The notes under the pieces are model-generated. The model did not search any database. It had not been told where the DNA came from and worked only from the letters and a program-made list of their open reading frames with translations. From a virus, in IMG/VR virus record IMGVR_UViG_3300029987_000038, positions 1 to 29,032 of that record: a DNA stretch of 29,032 nt. One strand, given 5' to 3'. Made by a program: the position numbers and the translations under genes. Positions 774-27,855 of this stretch are shown here, in pieces (positions within the stretch are counted from its first letter, which is position 1; every line of letters starts with the position of its first letter).

Positions 774-1254
774 CCAGTTCGCGCTCAATCATTTTGTGCA
801 ATTTGGCATCGTTCTTTCCGGTGCGCCCCTCAAGCGCCTTGAGCGCAAGCTGAAGTTTCTCCTTCTTCACCGTCTCCAGATATTCTTTCGCCTTGGTTCC
901 AAGGCCGCCGAACCTAGTGACAAAGTCTGTGGTAACTTTATGCTCTTGTCCCGGCTGTTCCTGGGCACCGGCACGACCATCCTCGTGCGGCTTCACATAA
1001 GTGCCGTCCGAACGAGTATAGCCCTCGACGTGTGATTTTACAATAATCACAGATTTCATGACCTTAGACTTCCCCTCGCGTTCCGCATCTTCGTATTCCT
1101 TCAGTTCACCTTCCTGCTCATCAGCCTCTTCCAAGTCATCCTTGTGAGACGGGGAGCGCAGCACAGCGACTAGCCGTTTGTGTTCCGACACCAGTCCGGA
1201 CACCGGTTCGGTTATGGTGGGTTCGCCGTGAGACTTCAAAACCATCACACGCAT
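739..1254 (-). CDS. Hypothetical structural-region protein with G-Y-TRSDGT motif
   Basis: 171 residues from the ATG at 1254; a GTG one codon earlier is an alternative start. The ATG overlaps the TGA of the head-morphogenesis gene (TGATG), so the two are probably translationally coupled. The N-terminal third is acidic (roughly residues 37-60, rich in Glu and Asp). Near residue 77 comes GYTRSDGTYVKPH, nearly identical to the motif near the start of the next gene downstream. The C-terminal half is a Lys/Glu-rich, probably helical segment. The position after portal and head-morphogenesis genes suggests a virion-assembly role, such as a scaffold-like or internal protein, but no family signature proves it. 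Confidence 0.7.
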   Translation of the reverse strand: MRVMVLKSHGEPTITEPVSGLVSEHKRLVAVLRSPSHKDDLEEADEQEGELKEYEDAEREGKSKVMKSVIIVKSHVEGYTRSDGTYVKPHEDGRAGAQEQPGQEHKVTTDFVTRFGGLGTKAKEYLETVKKEKLQLALKALEGRTGKNDAKLHKMIERELDDRASSGRSEW

Positions 1255-3458
1255 CACTTCTTACCCCCGGTGCGGCCCAACACCTCATCCATCCAATCGG
1301 AGAACGCGGGATCAACTGGACGAGTACCTTGTTCTATGGTTAACCATCTGCCGCGACAATTATGAACTACCATACCAGTTCCGGTAACATATGATTCGTC
1401 ATCATCAACACCGAAATTATATAGTTTTACTGGCTTCCTGCACGTTTTCCACTTCACAATGTCTACTGTAACGCTGGAAAATATGTATTCTCCAGAATGA
1501 TTCATCGCTACACGGATAATTTTTTCCGCGACATCATACGGATTATTCTTGGCATCAACAGAGCTAAACCTTAACACAGTCCACCCTTGAGATTTCATGT
1601 CTGCATCGCGGGCTCGGTCTCGAACGTCATTACCCATGCGATCATGCCATGGCTCACCATCAATCTCTATGACGATTTTTTCGTCAACTAAAGCCATGTC
1701 AGCCCACCAATACCTTGGGCACCCGCGAGAGTCTCTCTCAGTCTTCGGAATGCGATATTGTAATTCAGGCTTCCTTCCAAGACCTTCAATGATTTCGGCA
1801 ATATGCAATTCAATTGCGCTTGGCGCGTAATTATTTGTAGATGCCGCAACACCCATTCTGTGACGAGAGTCCGGGTCCATAAGATGTGCATAACCCTTTA
1901 TAGCCCCTGCTGCGCGAGCAGCTGCAGTTATTTCTCTGCGCTGTTCTACAGTCATGCTCTTCATGCGGCGTTTGTTAGCCACAGCAGTTTTCAAAACCTC
2001 AGCATCATATTTTCTCTTGTCATCAGTTGAAAACTGGTTTTTACCGCTTTTAGGCACGCATTTGTCACAGCACCATGTAGTAGTGCGAAACTTTGGATTG
2101 ACGAAATGTTTTCCGCATGTGGGGCACACCTTTGCCAGGGCGATTATTCCGTCCCCAGCATTAATGTCTTTGGCCGCAACCCACCCGTTTGTCGTCAGCA
2201 CTGGATGCTCAGGAGTCATATCTCCACTTGATGTGTGGTTCCGCCCATCAAATGATAACCCAAACCGTACAACTTTTCCAACATAGTTGGCAGGTTCATC
2301 AAGAACCCAGTTCACGGTGCGGAATCTACCCTTGTGGGTTAGGACACTATCGCCTACACGAATTGTACTAATTGGTCTCCAGCCACTGTCGGTATAAATC
2401 GGCATTCCTGGAAATGTGAAACAATTAGGATGTGATAACCCGCTCGGCAACCAGTACATCTCATCTGGCGTCCGCTCCACCAACTGATCGCCGATACGCT
2501 TACGCGGCGAGGCCGAGCGCCCAACGTTATTTTTCCCAACCCAAATCGATTTCGTCCCGTCCTTATCGGGATCGTCCGGCGACACCACGGTGGCCACGAC
2601 GCCATCAATCGACTTGCAGTACGGGCAAACCCCGCGGTACTGCTCGATACGCTTTACCTTGGTCCCGGTAGCCAGTGCCGCGATCGCGCCCTGGTTATAC
2701 GCCTCGCCCGCCTCGGTTACAGCAATCCGTCTCCAATCGCGATTCATGGGGGCAAGTGAATCGAATAACCGCTGCTCCAGAGAACCGCCAGACCGTGTCT
2801 TGTCACCCAGGATCATAGCTTCGGCATGATCCGTTACAATCCCCCGAATCCTATGGCGAAACGCATCGGTAACCGCAGTCACGTTCTCGGCCGCCCTGGC
2901 ACTACTGAACTCCAGAGCGGTGCGCTGAGCCGGTTTCATGCCGGTTGATGGCGGTAGTGGTGCTGCCATCAACTGAGCGACCTGAGCCGTGCTGGGAACC
3001 GCTGTCATGGCCGAGCTGACCCGTGCCATCATGTTCGACCGCGTTACCAGCCAGTCGGCATCGGTACGCATGTCATCGGCCGGTAGATAGCGCTGCACCA
3101 CGTAATCTACAGCCATCATCCAGTCGTCAAGCGTGTACTCACCGACTGGCAGCGAATTCAGGTACAGCCTGACCAGGTCAAGTTCTTCGCCAGACCATCG
3201 CGCCATTGCGCCAGCAGGACGTGGAACACGTTTCCCCGCAGCGCGGTGACCAGCTATACGACGCAACTCATCAACGACTCCGCGGATTCTGGTCAGGCCA
3301 CGCTTCGTGAAAATCTCGACAAGCTGTCTGATCAGCGGATTCGGATGTGGATCCCAGATCGCGTCACCAGGATCGTCACCCTGGGCCTTGGCGATGAACT
3401 CCAGTGTCGCGTCGCTGTGGTGTTCACACAGGCATCCGATGTCGATTAGTGTTGGCAT
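1254..3458 (-). CDS. Phage head-morphogenesis protein (Mu gpF / SPP1 gp7 type) interrupted by an intein
   Basis: The 734-residue precursor carries an in-frame intein at residues 346-700. Removing it leaves a 379-residue protein. The N-terminal extein ends with the typical head-morphogenesis signature: CPYCKSIDG near residue 285 and then LSHPN, which joins to CRGRW after splicing to restore the conserved HPxCR motif. Proteins of this family are minor capsid components at the portal vertex, and the portal gene lies upstream, as expected. The start ATG has no Shine-Dalgarno. It lies exactly 14 nt after a TGTCGTGAC box, so a leaderless transcript is predicted. The insertion directly before the conserved Cys supplies the nucleophile for splicing. 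Confidence 0.88.
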   Translation of the reverse strand: MPTLIDIGCLCEHHSDATLEFIAKAQGDDPGDAIWDPHPNPLIRQLVEIFTKRGLTRIRGVVDELRRIAGHRAAGKRVPRPAGAMARWSGEELDLVRLYLNSLPVGEYTLDDWMMAVDYVVQRYLPADDMRTDADWLVTRSNMMARVSSAMTAVPSTAQVAQLMAAPLPPSTGMKPAQRTALEFSSARAAENVTAVTDAFRHRIRGIVTDHAEAMILGDKTRSGGSLEQRLFDSLAPMNRDWRRIAVTEAGEAYNQGAIAALATGTKVKRIEQYRGVCPYCKSIDGVVATVVSPDDPDKDGTKSIWVGKNNVGRSASPRKRIGDQLVERTPDEMYWLPSGLSHPNCFTFPGMPIYTDSGWRPISTIRVGDSVLTHKGRFRTVNWVLDEPANYVGKVVRFGLSFDGRNHTSSGDMTPEHPVLTTNGWVAAKDINAGDGIIALAKVCPTCGKHFVNPKFRTTTWCCDKCVPKSGKNQFSTDDKRKYDAEVLKTAVANKRRMKSMTVEQRREITAAARAAGAIKGYAHLMDPDSRHRMGVAASTNNYAPSAIELHIAEIIEGLGRKPELQYRIPKTERDSRGCPRYWWADMALVDEKIVIEIDGEPWHDRMGNDVRDRARDADMKSQGWTVLRFSSVDAKNNPYDVAEKIIRVAMNHSGEYIFSSVTVDIVKWKTCRKPVKLYNFGVDDDESYVTGTGMVVHNCRGRWLTIEQGTRPVDPAFSDWMDEVLGRTGGKK
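1359..2423 (-). mobile_element. Intein with zinc ribbon and Vsr-like (EDxHD/DUF559-type) homing endonuclease
   Basis: This 355-residue insert begins with Cys and ends with VVHN followed by extein Cys, the canonical junctions. The splicing blocks are CFTFPGMPIYT with GDSV (block A), TPEHPV at intein residues 70-75 (block B), and LYNFGVDDDESY at 334-345 with VVHN (blocks F/G). Between them lie a Cys cluster (100, 103, 118, 119, 122) that fits a zinc ribbon, a basic linker, and a domain at about 203-305. That domain contains ADMAL, IEIDGEPWH and GWTVLRF, the layout of Vsr/DUF559-type nucleases; likely metal or catalytic residues are D242, E253, D255 and H260. No LAGLIDADG motif is present. The DNA looks more AT-rich than the flanking extein, consistent with transfer. 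Confidence 0.88.
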
Positions 3459-8883: not shown

Positions 8884-9342
8884 TTAGAACGGTATTTCGT
8901 CGTCAATCTCGGTACGGCTGAACTCAGTCGCCGCGACGTGCGTGTTCTGCGTCTGCTGAGCCTGGCGCTGTTCGCCAGAACTAGATCCGCGAGGTTCGCC
9001 CAACAGTACCAGCTCGCCGCGGAAGCGGTTGAGCACGACTTCGGTCGAGTATTTCTCGACGCCGTCTTTATCGGTCCATTTGCGGGTGGTGAGCTGGCCT
9101 TCGAGATAGACGCGACTGCCCTTGAACAGATACTGCTCGGCGATCTTGGCCAGACCTTCGTTGAAAATAACAACGCGGTGCCATTCTGTTTTTTCTTTCT
9201 TCTCGCCGCTCGATTTGTCCTTCCACGATTCGCTCGTGGCTACGGACAGATTGGCGATCGGTTCACCGCTCGTCATGCGCCGCACTTCAGGGTCACGCCC
9301 AAGCGTTCCGACGATGATCACTTTATTGACGCTACCTGACAT
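8884..9342 (-). CDS. ssb: Single-stranded DNA-binding protein
   Basis: 152 residues with the classic bacterial SSB fold: [16 protein letters not shown], then [13 protein letters not shown], then [12 protein letters not shown], then [20 protein letters not shown] Gln/Ser-rich linker follows, and the acidic tip DDEIPF recruits partner proteins in bacterial SSBs. The DNA-binding domain is about residues 1-110. GAGGGAAAC precedes the start. It lies in the same block as the sliding clamp, so it probably serves phage DNA replication and keeps contacts with host repair and replication proteins through its tip. Confidence 0.95.
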
Positions 9343-10601: not shown

Positions 10602-11708
10602 TCAAACCCTCATCGGCATCAGGACATACAGCACGCCCTGTTCAGCCGGATCCGTGATCACACTGGGCGAACCGGAGTCACCCATGGCGATGTCAACTTG
10701 GTCACCTGTGATACCACCGAGAATCCCTGCAAGGTACTTGTGATTAAAACCGATTTCAAGCGCTGCGCCAGAATATTCAGCTTCCAGCTCCTCGACCGAT
10801 CCAGCGCTGTTGGCACTTGACTGGGCGGTCAGCGTAACGCCGTCACCGTTCAGCGTGAACTTCACGGCAGCGGGTCCGTCAAAAATGACACCGGCACGAT
10901 CAACGGCAGCACTGAGCGCCTTGACGTCTGTGCGTATGTGATTAGGCGGTTCCTTGGGAATTACCCGCGTGTAGTCCGGAAACGTGCCGTCAATCAGTTT
11001 GGACACCAGTGTGATGCCGCCGAACGTGGTGCGGATTTTGGTATCACAGACTGTGATCTCAATATCGCCATCACCGCCACGCAGAAGCCCGGCCAGCACC
11101 GTACATGTGGTGCGGGGCAGAATGATGCCTGGGATTTGCTCGGCCCCGACCGGTAGCGATGTGTCGTATCTGGTCAGGCGGTGCCCATCGGTCGACACCG
11201 CACGTAACTGGCCATCGCTGTTGTGCAGGTAGATGCCGTTCAGGTGAAATCTGGTTTCTTCCGTCGACACGGTCGGAATAGTCCGGCCGATCAGGTCACG
11301 CAGTTCAGACACCGCCATGGTGAACACGGCTTGGCTCCGGGCCACCGCCATGGTCATCACTGGGAAATCTTCGCGCGGCAACGTGGCAAGTTCGAACCGC
11401 GATCGACCCGCTGTGACCCGCGCCGAGTTATCGGCCGTTTCGAACCCGACCTGCGATCCCTTCGGAAGTTTCCGCACGATGTCGGACAGGATATGGGCCG
11501 GAACCGTGACAGCGCCGGTGGACAGTATGTCGGCCGCGACAGTTTCCGTCACCTCGATATCAAGGTCAGTCGCGGTCATGGTAAGGCCGTCAGCCGTCGC
11601 CGTGACCAGCGTATTGCCAAGAACAGGGATGGTGTTTCGCTTCGACACGATGGCGCGGATATGGTCCAGCGCGGCAGTCAGTGCGGATTGTTCAGCGGTG
11701 AATTTCAT
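10602..11708 (-). CDS. dnaN: DNA polymerase III beta sliding clamp (DnaN)
   Basis: 368 residues, the usual length for bacterial beta clamps. Landmarks run in order: MKFTAEQSAL, KRNTIPVLGN and ATDLDIEV in domain I, RFHLNGIYLH and AVSTDGHRLTRYD in domain II, DGTFPDYTRVIP at the II/III boundary, and the C-terminal VLYVLMPMRV. Three domains are complete, so it should form a homodimeric ring that tethers polymerase. It looks like a full bacterial DnaN rather than a phage T4-type clamp, so it was probably acquired from a host. No polymerase gene is in the window, so it may work with host DNA polymerase III or a phage polymerase encoded elsewhere. GAGGATG precedes the start. Confidence 0.95.
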   Translation of the reverse strand: MKFTAEQSALTAALDHIRAIVSKRNTIPVLGNTLVTATADGLTMTATDLDIEVTETVAADILSTGAVTVPAHILSDIVRKLPKGSQVGFETADNSARVTAGRSRFELATLPREDFPVMTMAVARSQAVFTMAVSELRDLIGRTIPTVSTEETRFHLNGIYLHNSDGQLRAVSTDGHRLTRYDTSLPVGAEQIPGIILPRTTCTVLAGLLRGGDGDIEITVCDTKIRTTFGGITLVSKLIDGTFPDYTRVIPKEPPNHIRTDVKALSAAVDRAGVIFDGPAAVKFTLNGDGVTLTAQSSANSAGSVEELEAEYSGAALEIGFNHKYLAGILGGITGDQVDIAMGDSGSPSVITDPAEQGVLYVLMPMRV

Positions 11709-21815: not shown

Positions 21816-21985
21816 GACAGTGTCCTGTATGCCCACGATGCGGAACGTTGCTGTAATCGCTTGATTGCGCCGAGCGGAATCCCAATATCCTGCATTACCA
21901 ACATTGGTAATGTCAGGATAGCAATCACGAACAGTAGCCCAGCAGCTAACGTTCCTATGGCCCATTTTTGATACCGTATCATCAT
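21812..21985 (-). CDS. Small membrane protein (57 aa)
   Basis: 57 residues: MMIRYQKWAI, a hydrophobic helix (GTLAAGLLFVIAILTLPMLV, residues 11-30), then a basic cytoplasmic-type tail (AIKRLQQRSASWAYRTLS). The start overlaps the DnaA-domain stop (ATGATGATA). It lies 0.7 kb downstream of the wall hydrolase in the same operon, so a lysis role is conceivable but unproven. Confidence 0.65.
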   Translation of the reverse strand: MMIRYQKWAIGTLAAGLLFVIAILTLPMLVMQDIGIPLGAIKRLQQRSASWAYRTLS

Positions 21986-22395
21986 CCCATTCCTCTCAAA
22001 AACCGGCCAACACAGGCCGCGGCATACAGCCCGTCTTCGCAACAACGAACAGCGGCGCCACTCGGTAACTGTCGCCATGACCTGTCACGGATGTGGTCGA
22101 CCAATCCCGTAATCTGTTCCACGGCCTCGCGTGTACCGCGGTTCTTACGCACGCCATCATAGATACGCCGTCCCGCGTTCATGACTGTGGTATGATCTGT
22201 CAGGCCAACGTCTCGCGCAATCTCAGGTAGTGACTTGGTGGTCAGGTCGCGCGCCAGATAGCACGCCACCATCCTGGGTACGGCAGAATACTGCGATCGA
22301 TCACCACCTGTAATCTCGTCCAGAGGCATGCGGTAATAGACCGATGTCGCGGCCAGGATTTCTGACATGGATGGTTGGCGGCGGATCAGTGTCAT
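21982..22395 (-). CDS. Stand-alone DnaA domain IV (DNA-binding) protein
   Basis: 137 residues from ATG 22395 (ATGA overlap). Residues 9-82 match DnaA domain IV: ILAATSVYYRMPLDEITGG, then AVPRMVACYLARDLT, then LPEIARDVGL, and the signature DHTTVMNAGRRI at 67-78. In DnaA this domain recognises 9-bp DnaA boxes. The AAA+ ATPase, oligomerisation and helicase-loading domains are absent. The protein could bind host oriC or DnaA-box promoters and compete with DnaA, or act at a phage origin. The last 40 residues are unrelated. It is co-translated with a small HTH protein. Confidence 0.88.
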   Translation of the reverse strand: MTLIRRQPSMSEILAATSVYYRMPLDEITGGDRSQYSAVPRMVACYLARDLTTKSLPEIARDVGLTDHTTVMNAGRRIYDGVRKNRGTREAVEQITGLVDHIRDRSWRQLPSGAAVRCCEDGLYAAACVGRFLRGMG

Positions 22396-22592
22396 GACGT
22401 CGTCACTGTGCGTAACGCTGGCGGCGTCTTGAACGCCAAGCCAAGTTCCTTGGCGATCTGTTTGATGTAATCGACAGAGTAATCTAGCCGGATGGAAATC
22501 TGTGTGGAATTCAGCCCAGATAACCATAGCGCAGCCACACACGCCCGTAACTCGTCATGCGACAGGCGGTTGCGGCGCTGGGCTCCAGTCAT
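22392..22592 (-). CDS. Small helix-turn-helix protein (66 aa)
   Basis: 66 residues, with SHDELRACVAALWLSGLNST, then QISIRLDYSVDYIKQIAKEL, a helix-turn-helix of the type that scans DNA in small regulators and transposase N-termini. It starts with ATGA overlap after the 32-aa membrane protein and its stop overlaps the DnaA-domain start. Likely a DNA-binding partner or regulator. Target unknown. Confidence 0.7.
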   Translation of the reverse strand: MTGAQRRNRLSHDELRACVAALWLSGLNSTQISIRLDYSVDYIKQIAKELGLAFKTPPALRTVTTS

Positions 22593-22687
22593 TTGTGCCA
22601 CACCACGTAATACAGTCCGATGATCAAAAAACCAACAACAACGCAAACGATAACCGTGATTATAACTACCTGATCTGAAACATTCAT
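22589..22687 (-). CDS. Tiny single-span membrane protein (32 aa) coupled to the wall hydrolase
   Basis: 32 residues: MNVSDQ, a very hydrophobic span (VVIITVIVCVVVGFLIIGLY) and VVWHK. Both ends overlap neighbours by ATGA, and the upstream neighbour is the SleB-type hydrolase. The position suggests a holin- or spanin-like helper, although 32 residues is very short for known holins. Confidence 0.65.
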   Translation of the reverse strand: MNVSDQVVIITVIVCVVVGFLIIGLYYVVWHK

Positions 22688-23109
22688 GGCTTCCACTCCC
22701 CTTTGAAATATACGTTGCCCCCCAACTGTCCCACCCTCACCAATTTCCTGGCCCACCGCGGCCGGTCCCACGCCGCCGTAAAGTACAGCGAACCTGATGT
22801 AATACCCCTGCCATCACCGGCCATAGCACGACGGGCCAGGGCAACCACATGGGCCGGGGCCTTCTTGCCATGCCCGTCAAACTGAGACCGGGCCCGGACC
22901 AGAGCGCAAACGCTCTTACCAGATTGCTCGGCCCGGTTCAATACCACATCGGCCACGGCCAACATCGCCACCTCGCCGTCACCGCGGGCCTCGCCCCACA
23001 TCGTGGAGGCCAGGCACCTGGTGTCTCGATCGTACAACGGGGTGGCAGTTGCTGAACCAACGGTCATTAATCCAGCGATGATGGCAGCGGCCAGGGCGGT
23101 CACCCTCAT
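22684..23109 (-). CDS. SleB-type cell-wall hydrolase (endolysin candidate) with signal peptide
   Basis: 141 residues. Residues 1-22 form a signal peptide (MRVTALAAAIIAGLMTVGSA, cleavage after A-T-A). The mature part is the Hydrolase_2/SleB domain: CLASTMWGEARGDGEVAML with catalytic Glu40, VADVVLNRAEQ, and the GSLYFTAAW/GGNVYFKG end. These enzymes cleave peptidoglycan glycan strands. The signal peptide means that export is Sec-dependent. The start overlaps the upstream stop by ATGA, and a 32-aa membrane protein overlaps its end. Endolysin is the likeliest role. Confidence 0.88.
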   Translation of the reverse strand: MRVTALAAAIIAGLMTVGSATATPLYDRDTRCLASTMWGEARGDGEVAMLAVADVVLNRAEQSGKSVCALVRARSQFDGHGKKAPAHVVALARRAMAGDGRGITSGSLYFTAAWDRPRWARKLVRVGQLGGNVYFKGEWKP

Positions 23110-23543
23110 CGCTTGATATCCCACAACCGGTCATACAGGGCCAGGAGAGCCTCCAGGGCGGCCACTGTCTTGGGAAGGTCTTCGCGGTAGTGCGGATCAG
23201 CGGCGAGGCTCCTGACCGGCTCCACGGTCGCGTGGGGCGGTAAATCGTCCAACACCGAGGTCACGGCGATCTGTTTCAGGGCGTGTTGCCATGGTGTGGT
23301 CAATAACTCCTCACGCACATCCGCGTAAGGGATTCCAAGACCGGCGTCAAGTTCAGCAATACCTTCCTCGATCGCCAACCAATCGGCCTCAGCGGCGTCA
23401 GATTCGGACTCCGCCTTGTTTCCAACAACCCGGATACTGCCGGTTACAGCGTTGTCGCCAAACGACGTTTCAGGCTCGTGCCACGCCGTGTCGCATGTAT
23501 TGTCGGCTGTGCCGAGCAGTTCGGTAGCAGTTTTACACGTCAT
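23106..23543 (-). CDS. Hypothetical acidic protein (145 aa)
   Basis: 145 residues beginning MTCKTATELLGTADNTCD. Acidic with helical middle (ADWLAIEEGIAELDAG, then WQHALKQIAVTSVLDDL) and end (TVAALEALLALYDRLWDIK). It overlaps the winged-helix gene upstream by 11 nt and the hydrolase gene downstream by 4 nt. No family recognised. Its place next to the CtrA-like protein is the only clue. Confidence 0.65.
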   Translation of the reverse strand: MTCKTATELLGTADNTCDTAWHEPETSFGDNAVTGSIRVVGNKAESESDAAEADWLAIEEGIAELDAGLGIPYADVREELLTTPWQHALKQIAVTSVLDDLPPHATVEPVRSLAADPHYREDLPKTVAALEALLALYDRLWDIKR

Positions 23544-24027
23544 GGGTGTTCTCCTGTGTGGGTTTGGGCGCAAACACACGAGCGCCGTTTGGGACTGGGT
23601 CGGTCGCTAACCGTAGCGCCCATCCGTCGCCTTGGTATGTGTCGATCACGATTCCGAGTGGGAATAGCTTCTGCCGTAACCGGCGAATAATGGTTTGGAT
23701 ACTACGAAAGCCAGAATCAGGCTCCGCTGACCGCCGCGGATACATCTCACGGAAGATAACACGTTTATCAATTACGTGCCCACGAGCAGCCCCCAGCATC
23801 TTCAGAGTTCTACACTCCATTTTTGTAAGCCATTCGGATTGTACGCCATTTAGACGCACAACTGATAACTCCTTGTCAAACCACAATTCTACAGTGAAGT
23901 TGTGTAAATTTGTATTTTCTTCTTGTTGTTTACATTCCACACCAAACTCCTGTTCAATTACCTGTGTACCGATTGGTTTTCCGGTTAACGATTCTCCGCA
24001 TATCGATGTCAAGTTTCCTTTACACAT
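23533..24027 (-). CDS. CtrA/OmpR-type winged-helix DNA-binding protein without receiver domain
   Basis: 164 residues. Residues 66-140 form an OmpR/PhoB-type C-terminal DNA-binding domain: LTKMECRTLKMLGAARGHVI, KRVIFREMYP, the recognition helix FRSIQTIIRRLRQKL, and the wing IDTYQGDGWALRL. This is the layout of CtrA in alphaproteobacteria. The phosphorylated receiver domain is missing and is replaced by about 45 unrelated residues, so activity would not depend on the phosphorelay. The 5' half of the gene is visibly AT-rich compared with neighbours. It overlaps the GcrA-like gene by 8 nt. It may bind host CtrA sites or phage promoters; neither is shown. Confidence 0.85.
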   Translation of the reverse strand: MCKGNLTSICGESLTGKPIGTQVIEQEFGVECKQQEENTNLHNFTVELWFDKELSVVRLNGVQSEWLTKMECRTLKMLGAARGHVIDKRVIFREMYPRRSAEPDSGFRSIQTIIRRLRQKLFPLGIVIDTYQGDGWALRLATDPVPNGARVFAPKPTQENTHDV

Positions 24028-24286
24028 CGCCTACACCTGGTTTCGCACCTACAAACGCGAACTCCGTACTAGCCGGCCTCTTGCCTCGCTTCACGGCCCT
24101 GCTATCCCAGTCATGGCAGGCGCAGTACTTACTACCTGGGATGGCATCACTGGCGCAGAACCGGAAATCGGTTGAGTCGACGTGACCGGTTGGCCAGCGA
24201 CACTGTGGCTCGCGACCGGGTGACCGGGGACGTAGCGCCATGATCGCGGCCTGAGCAGTGAGCGTGTCTTGATCGCGGTAGGTCAT
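24020..24286 (-). CDS. GcrA-like sigma-interacting domain protein
   Basis: 88 residues. Residues 29-58 carry the GcrA C-terminal signature: C-x-W-P-x-G (CRWPTGH), D-F-R-F-C (residues 40-44) and Y-C-x-x-H (YCACH). In Caulobacter GcrA this region binds domain 2 of sigma70, while the separate N-terminal domain reads methylated GANTC. Here only about 28 residues precede the motif, so the DNA-binding domain is absent. The protein should therefore contact the host sigma factor without its own site reading, unless it works with another protein, for which the overlapping winged-helix gene is an obvious candidate. The ribosome site is weak. Confidence 0.8.
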   Translation of the reverse strand: MTYRDQDTLTAQAAIMALRPRSPGREPQCRWPTGHVDSTDFRFCASDAIPGSKYCACHDWDSRAVKRGKRPASTEFAFVGAKPGVGDV

Positions 24287-26850: not shown

Positions 26851-26908
26851 ATAAAAAATAGACGTAATTGTGCGTCTGTGTGAGTATTATTGGAAGGAAG
26901 TTACAGAT

Positions 26909-27436
26909 ATGAGGCCGAAAATGGCTCATTACACCATGCCGGATGAGGTGCTTGACCTGGTCAATGCCATGGCGAAGAAACACAAGGTGTCGAAATCGCA
27001 GATCGTGACATGGGCAGTGCTGGATTATGACGAGTGCCATGACCGGCTGGCGGCTCGGGTCAAGGCCGAAACGGAAGCCCGACAACGCATCGTGATGCGG
27101 TTTTCGCGTCCAGAACCGCCCAAGCCACGTCAGGCCCCGTCCGGGTCATCCCCTAAGGTCGATTGGGGAAAGGTCAAGAAGACTGGCCTAAATGCGCCTT
27201 GGACCCATGACAAGACGTTTGCACCGGTAGTATCCGATGGCATGATGGCATCCGTTTTCATCCCGTATGACGACAACGACAGCCGGATGACGTCCGCCCT
27301 GGTGACCGGTCGAATCAGGGCTGGTATCAATGCTTGGAAGAAATCCAGGAACATGAACAACGTGGTGTTCCACACCGCGCGGTGCCGAGATCCGCAAACC
27401 GGGACACACGCGTTCGAAGTCTGGAGGGAGGTATGA
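26909..27436 (+). CDS. Ribbon-helix-helix protein with C-terminal domain (175 aa), copy 1
   Basis: 175 residues. The ATG at 26909 is preferred over an upstream GTG because GGAAGGAAG lies 8 nt before it. Residues 5-45 (AHYTMPDEVLDLVNAMAKKH, VSKSQIVTWAVLDYDE) fit a ribbon-helix-helix DNA-binding domain: a short strand and two helices. After a Pro/Lys linker, the C-terminal 75 residues (ASVFIPYDDNDSRMTSALV, GRIRAGINAWKK, AFEVWREV) resemble the same part of the next protein. Likely a dimeric repressor or DNA-organising factor acting early. Autoregulation at the divergent region is plausible. Confidence 0.78.
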   Translation: MRPKMAHYTMPDEVLDLVNAMAKKHKVSKSQIVTWAVLDYDECHDRLAARVKAETEARQRIVMRFSRPEPPKPRQAPSGSSPKVDWGKVKKTGLNAPWTHDKTFAPVVSDGMMASVFIPYDDNDSRMTSALVTGRIRAGINAWKKSRNMNNVVFHTARCRDPQTGTHAFEVWREV

Positions 27437-27855
27437 GTGATAAGGAATGGGTCAGGGTCACGGGCCCTGCGGCCGAAGTGATGACCGGTATCTCGATGCG
27501 TGAGGCCAGAGACCCGGCTGAGGTGGTAGAGTCCGCACTGCGTGAGTACTACGCCATGCGTTACGTCTACACGCCACAGCACGTTATCTCGATGCGTGAA
27601 GAGGTTATCAACAACAACGAATGGGTGGAAGTTCCGACGCCCAGATTCAACCCATGCGCCCTCGCGCCAGGCAATAAGAAATCCTCGGTTGTGGTGCCGT
27701 TCGATAACGGCGATCCACGATCCTGCTCAACGTTGTTGTGGAACCGGATCCATGTCAGCATTGATCGCGCCAAGAACCAAGGTAAGGTCGGGATGGGTGC
27801 GATCTTCACGGTGAAGCCGGTCGACGGCGGTTACGAGGTCAGGCGCCTGAAGTGA
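27433..27855 (+). CDS. Ribbon-helix-helix-like protein (140 aa), paralogous copy 2
   Basis: 140 residues. The ATG overlaps the stop of copy 1 (ATGA) and follows GGAGGGAGG. The N-terminus (EWVRVTGPAAEVMTGISMRE, then DPAEVVESALREYYAM) again fits strand-helix-helix. The C-terminus (SSVVVPFDNGDPRSCSTLL, NRIHVSIDRAKNQG, GYEVRRLK) parallels copy 1 in order and spacing. The pair probably arose by tandem duplication and may form heterodimers or divide early and late functions. A 9-bp stem lies 9 nt after the stop. Confidence 0.75.
   Translation: MSDKEWVRVTGPAAEVMTGISMREARDPAEVVESALREYYAMRYVYTPQHVISMREEVINNNEWVEVPTPRFNPCALAPGNKKSSVVVPFDNGDPRSCSTLLWNRIHVSIDRAKNQGKVGMGAIFTVKPVDGGYEVRRLK

Follow-up and report, generated by a model that had tools for sequence, protein, structure and literature searches.

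The DNA analysed here (the window, an entire IMG/VR virus record, IMGVR_UViG_3300029987_000038, of 29,032 bases) encodes on its minus strand, between positions 21982 and 24286, three small proteins, each of which contains a single recognised module of a bacterial regulator, namely, the σ-interacting domain (SID) of GcrA, a winged helix-turn-helix (wHTH) domain of the OmpR/PhoB type without a receiver, and domain IV of DnaA (DnaA-IV). The three open reading frames (ORFs) all exceed the curated Pfam cut-offs of the respective families and are located where the initial annotation of this sequence had placed them. That annotation described the trio as stripped-down forms of three master regulators of the Caulobacter-type cell cycle; two of the assignments, to GcrA and DnaA, hold, whereas the third protein, which had been assigned to CtrA, is a receiver-less OmpR/PhoB-type winged helix.

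The SID protein (positions 24020..24286, minus strand; 88 amino acids) is, judging from its sequence and predicted structure, a member of the GcrA family by virtue of its C-terminal σ-interacting domain, and it is predicted to bind domain 2 of σ70. It matches the PF07750 (GcrA) profile with a score of 32.1 bits (curated cut-off 26.9; E = 1.8e-7), and the match spans positions 107-141 of the 155 in the profile, that is, the C-terminal end only; profile positions 1-106 are uncovered and the N-terminal DNA-binding domain of GcrA is absent from the 88-amino-acid ORF, as initially proposed. The protein falls below the cut-off of the NCBIfam GcrA equivalog NF050816 (19.3 vs 280 bits). When all window ORFs were ranked with a hidden Markov model (HMM) of host GcrA C-termini, the SID protein came first (5e-9; runner-up, 1.2). 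The C-F-C-Y-C-H core is conserved. In the AlphaFold model, the core residues, approximately 31-60, have a per-residue confidence (pLDDT) of 91-92, with a mean of 69 over the chain. A Foldseek search with this core against the PDB returned seven matches, and the only ones with E<1 were the GcrA structures 7ye1, 5yix and 7ye2 (E 0.05-0.09), modest values such as are to be expected of so small a core; 5yix, which contains the SID together with σ70 domain 2, aligned with a root-mean-square deviation of 1.7 Å over 38 columns and a Foldseek probability of 1.00. The alignment supplied to AlphaFold included host GcrAs, and the structural match is accordingly in part dependent on the sequence evidence; the GcrA reference sequence was verified against the PDB chain.

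The start of the gene for the wHTH protein (23533..24027, minus strand; 164 amino acids) overlaps the end of the SID gene by 8 bases. The protein matches PF00486 (Trans_reg_C) with 28.7 bits (curated cut-off 26.2; E = 1.4e-6) and its PDB matches are to the DNA-binding domain of ArlR (E about 3e-3). A receiver is absent from the ORF, for which neither Pfam nor NCBIfam reports Response_reg, and the N-terminus consists of about 48 residues without a recognised fold. Thus, the part of the initial description that concerned the missing receiver stands, but the CtrA identity was abandoned: the NCBIfam CtrA model NF045991 gives no match to the protein at E<=10, whereas it scores a real CtrA DNA-binding domain at 9e-56 (this control sequence was validated by a match of 2e-123 to the CtrA model). 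The best NCBIfam models are PhoB and TorR, and, by sequence, the protein is a generic OmpR/PhoB winged helix and not CtrA. Nor did CtrA sites turn up in the phage DNA, no exact copy of TTAA-N7-TTAA being present in the window, which is a weak test inasmuch as the targets may lie in the host.

The DnaA-IV protein (21982..22395, minus strand) comprises 137 amino acids when counted from the ATG, and its ORF extends over 21982-22542 from the furthest GTG. It matches PF08299 (Bac_DnaA_C) with 64.6 bits (curated cut-off 31.5; E = 8e-18) and its PDB matches are C-terminal domains of DnaA. In Escherichia coli DnaA, R399, P423 and the D433-H-T-T motif contact DNA and the DnaA box, and the equivalent positions are all retained in the phage protein. 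In agreement with the initial annotation, domain profile searches detect neither the AAA+ ATPase nor the N-terminal domains of DnaA in this ORF, and the score against the full-length equivalog TIGR00362 is well below the cut-off (67.9 vs 343.9 bits, over profile positions 338-434 only).

Recurrence of the three genes in other phages

The initial annotation tied its reading to conservation of the trio in relatives, and this expectation fails for the relatives defined by virion genes while it is borne out in a separate group of phages. For each of the three Pfam families, none of the 46 terminase-related records has a match over the cut-off, and the single weak Trans_reg_C match among them (E 0.002) lies inside a 602-amino-acid frame. 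Searches for close relatives with the window SID or wHTH protein as single queries found nothing, and the relatives of both were reached through alignments of relatives that had been found via DnaA-IV. A scan with DnaA-IV led to other viral contigs, in one group of which an overlapping SID-only gene comes immediately after that for DnaA-IV. A Trans_reg_C search of the records with this pair revealed, upstream of it in four of them, a receiver-less wHTH protein of about 127 amino acids with a helical N-terminus; these matches fell below the Pfam cut-off, but, among PDB entries, a profile of this family picks out regulators of the OmpR/PhoB type, and its predicted fold matches the DNA-binding domains of SaeR, ToxR and YycF. 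In the wHTH proteins of this group (L224-L278), the helical N-terminus (LRDRIAELEEEVRQLR), which takes the place of the receiver, is conserved; in the models, it is plausibly a coiled coil that would dimerise the winged helix without phosphorylation.

When the viral collection was scanned with the SID alone, all 17 contigs recovered, some of which are near-identical, carried an adjacent DnaA-IV gene in an overlapping frame. The scan with the relatives' wHTH alone yielded 41 contigs, several of them near-identical or short, of which 22 encode DnaA-IV, 20 a GcrA-type protein, 29 at least one of the two, and 13 both. In these 13, the genes lie within about 5 kb of each other, and the GcrA-type gene is SID-only in 11 and full-length in 2; four of the 13 had supplied the wHTH seed, so that 9/37 is the fairer figure. 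Many of the contigs with the DnaA-IV/SID pair have a wHTH gene 0.4-5 kb off, and two gene orders are seen, wHTH ... DnaA-IV > SID and SID ... DnaA-IV > wHTH. Residues of the domain cores are conserved across divergent phages. The same three models gave zero matches in 1.14 Mb of loci from the terminase relatives, so a chance clustering of the trio is very unlikely; this control, probably composed mainly of phages of hosts other than Alphaproteobacteria, gauges false positives and not the rate in other alphaproteobacterial phages. The co-localisation is thus observed in two phage groups, and because the same three kinds of genes occur together in an unrelated group, the trio gives the impression of a recurrent set of tools with which to steer the transcription or replication of the host. 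A profile-profile comparison of the window wHTH with that of the relatives gave an hhalign probability of 47%, over 26 columns only; the two may or may not be homologous beyond the shared fold and, therefore, the trio could have come together independently in the two groups. The Caudoviricetes record MW202640 contains the wHTH, with DnaA-IV and a GcrA-type gene absent in the stretch read. The small overlapping genes that follow DnaA-IV in Bradyrhizobium phages were considered as SIDs and rejected, and PHROGs offers no named function for the SID or the winged-helix proteins.

The composition of the GcrA-type protein varies among phages. In two loci (L250 and L251), the GcrA that accompanies wHTH and DnaA-IV is full-length, some phages have a full-length GcrA 5-6 kb away on the opposite strand, and in Rhizobium phage RHph_X2_24 (L199, 3719-4228; QWY83191.1) the SID is fused to a helix-turn-helix (HTH) that is not that of GcrA. 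From the full-length proteins and the SID-HTH of RHph_X2_24, it follows that the DNA-binding half is apparently exchangeable among phage GcrA-type proteins. Bacterial genomes contain comparable pieces. SID-only ORFs of 61-80 amino acids are present in alphaproteobacterial genomes (four loci), with two to three SID-only GcrA-like ORFs in Microvirga Mcv34 by itself, and stand-alone DnaA-IV-like proteins of about 120-190 amino acids, in which DHTT is replaced by DR(S/T)T, are encoded beside the true DnaA in many alphaproteobacterial genomes (ten loci).

Gene neighbourhood, phage affiliation and likely host

The order on the minus strand is metallopeptidase, SID, wHTH, a 145-amino-acid ORF, a cell-wall hydrolase, a 66-amino-acid HTH ORF and DnaA-IV; the trio is not contiguous, the three ORFs named between wHTH and DnaA-IV separating these two. 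Overlaps of a few bases join SID to wHTH, wHTH to the 145-amino-acid ORF, and the 66-amino-acid ORF to DnaA-IV. The 145-amino-acid ORF (23106..23543, minus strand), the start of which overlaps the wHTH gene and is preceded by an AGGAG-like site, scores above threshold with neither Pfam nor PHROG families. The hydrolase (22684..23109, minus strand; Hydrolase_2/SleB type, PF07486, 3e-12; PHROG 938 endolysin, 6.5e-13) is, by sequence similarity, a probable endolysin and, like the trio, is absent from 21/21 large terminase relatives tested. The 66-amino-acid ORF (22392..22592, minus strand), which overlaps the start of the DnaA-IV gene, bears a faint likeness to the GcrA DNA-binding domain: it is the best window ORF for the HMM of that domain, weakly so at E 0.022, and hhalign gives a probability of 34%, against 26% for an unrelated phage HTH. 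Whether it is a split-off DNA-binding half of GcrA or an unrelated HTH is a lead rather than a result.

The best matches of the window terminase (39-60% identity) are to ~90-kb phages of Aeromonas, Pseudomonas, Enterobacter, Yersinia and Bordetella and to 73 environmental loci, so the window probably represents about one third of a phage genome. It also encodes a portal protein, a metallophosphoesterase, three tRNAs and, on the minus strand, a single-stranded DNA-binding protein (SSB, 8884-9342) and the β sliding clamp of DNA polymerase III (DnaN, 10602-11708). Among plasmids and chromids, 20/20 listed matches of DnaN are alphaproteobacterial (40-47% identity; Sinorhizobium, Shinella, Sphingomonas, Sphingosinicella, Azospirillum, Paracoccus and Erythrobacter), in a search where most of the matched records came from groups other than Alphaproteobacteria. 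Given these matches and the GcrA-type protein, GcrA being native to Alphaproteobacteria, the sequence points to a likely alphaproteobacterial host. The frequency of GANTC in the window (97 vs 105 expected) is uninformative as a clue to the host.

DnaN is also carried by Rhizobium phages 16-3, RR1-A and others. Elsewhere in the window, a 734-amino-acid protein (1254-3458, minus strand) combines a Hint/intein-type domain with an inserted DUF559/MTES_1575 nuclease-like domain and is likely to be an intein with a homing endonuclease. Two adjacent ORFs on the plus strand (26870-27436 and 27334-27855), which diverge from the remainder of the map, have similar C-terminal halves (PYDDNDSR.../PFDNGDPRS...) and look like a tandem duplication of one protein.

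Functional interpretation

In GcrA, the SID and the DNA-binding domain are separate modules connected by an unstructured linker, and the SID binds σ domain 2 (PMC7403470); therefore, a free SID has two conceivable roles, as a competitor of host GcrA or as a σ-binding subunit for other DNA-binding proteins. We favor the second because the SID and DnaA-IV genes overlap in the relatives and the DNA-binding parts are exchanged. The trio would then be a transcription-takeover module, recurrent in phages with alphaproteobacterial hosts and made up of a σ70-binding adaptor and separately encoded DNA-binding partners, an interpretation to which we assign a probability of about 45%. Under this scheme, the SID protein would bind domain 2 of the host σ70 and would make no promoter choice on its own; that choice would be supplied by the DnaA-IV protein, by the receiver-less wHTH protein, or by both, and together the proteins would steer the host RNA polymerase without GANTC methylation, phosphorylation or ATP. 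The model for such a mechanism is the σ appropriation of phage T4 (AsiA plus MotA), here acting via σ domain 2. The domain identities, the missing domains and the co-localisation are observed; that σ70 is bound and that the SID contacts the DNA binders is inferred, as are the sites targeted and the direction in which transcription would change. If the proposal is correct, this would be a σ-appropriation system working through σ domain 2, and its small, defined proteins would be suitable for testing the separability of activation by GcrA from DNA recognition.

Several observations weigh against this scheme. In the window, the SID gene overlaps wHTH rather than DnaA-IV; no DnaA-IV/SID fusion was seen; and there are contigs with the wHTH in which the other two genes are missing. 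Moreover, the window, which is a genome fragment, shows no excess of DnaA boxes (16 with <=1 mismatch, against an expectation of 18.9), nor is there a clear one in the relatives. The lack of enrichment in the window fits a target in the host and, with it, a possible, if on balance doubtful, dominant-negative action, whereby the free SID would block host GcrA at σ70 domain 2 while the free DnaA-IV occupies DnaA boxes at oriC and at DnaA-regulated promoters, which would bring cell-cycle transcription and the initiation of replication in the host to a halt and make resources available to the phage; no joint action would be needed. It is compatible with this that each protein is a binding module minus the effector or regulatory part, that DnaA-IV retains the box-contacting residues, and that the phage encodes a sliding clamp and an SSB of its own. 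The GcrA-type SIDs of related modules are, however, sometimes full-length or joined to an HTH, which suggests activators and not blockers, and the overlap of the DnaA-IV and SID genes suggests joint action. As the initial annotation proposed, the trio may act on the host cell cycle, and the unenriched DnaA boxes and the lack of an exact CtrA site in the window neither prove nor exclude a target in the host.

A narrower form of transcription takeover, unlikely as it stands in all its specifics, is a split and re-targeted GcrA. The free grip on σ70 domain 2 would be paired with the free DnaA-IV, along with the wHTH, in place of the methylation-dependent DNA-binding domain, and polymerase would be recruited to sites of the DnaA-box type independently of methylation by CcrM, the nucleotide state of DnaA and phosphorylation of the CtrA type. 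Were this the case, transcription takeover would be tied to the control of replication initiation.

Alternatively, the trio might control the middle or late promoters or the origin of the phage itself, the likeness to host regulators reflecting only the source of the domains. In the relatives, the trio-type genes lie downstream of apparent replication genes, a common site of phage regulators, and the stand-alone DnaA-IV and SID-only proteins of alphaproteobacterial genomes indicate that these domains circulate as spare parts. We nevertheless consider self-regulation rather improbable, given that random regulators would not be expected to yield so specific a combination as a σ-binding domain and DnaA-IV. 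Finally, the truncation of all three proteins relative to their host counterparts could suggest functionless remnants of captured regulators, a notion that is hardly credible and is largely refuted by the conserved core residues in divergent phages, along with the intact ORFs with overlapping starts and the recurrence of the combination in many contigs.

Comparison with known systems

Phage capture of the whole GcrA is already known, and the single pieces are present in sequence data: phiCbK-like phages encode GcrA homologues that have been proposed to act on the replicative state of the host (PMC3556154), and phage-borne GcrA also occurs in brucellaphage Y17 (PMC11836647) and in phiLM21-like prophages (PMC12429752). 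In the open-access literature, we found no report of SID-only forms or of the combination of SID, DnaA-IV and wHTH. What is new here is the σ-binding half of GcrA on its own, accompanied by DnaA-IV and wHTH in more than one phage group.

The window SID shares with Caulobacter crescentus GcrA (5yix, 7ye1, 7ye2) the C-terminal σ-interacting fold and the C-F-C-Y-C-H core, with 22-29% identity in the structural alignments, but lacks the linker and the N-terminal domain that binds methylated GANTC. The GcrAs of phiCbK-like and other phages belong to the same family and are likewise encoded by phages; they, however, include the DNA-binding part (the match covers GcrA residues 2-157), whereas the window encodes the SID only, with DnaA-IV and wHTH nearby. 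QWY83191.1 of RHph_X2_24 has a phage GcrA SID as well, joined in that case to its foreign HTH within one protein. The DnaA-IV protein resembles domain IV of DnaA in its HTH with the box-contacting residues; unlike DnaA, it has no domains I-III and, hence, would be incapable of ATP hydrolysis, oligomerisation and helicase loading by the means known for DnaA. With the response regulators of the OmpR/PhoB type (ArlR, SaeR, PhoB), the wHTH proteins share the winged helix but not the receiver, in place of which the window protein has its ~48 N-terminal residues and the relatives a long helix. In its proposed logic, the module would parallel AsiA/MotA of T4 (PMC6755090), where a pair of phage proteins, one binding σ and the other DNA, redirects the polymerase of the host. 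The two systems are not homologous, and AsiA binds σ domain 4, whereas the GcrA SID binds σ domain 2.

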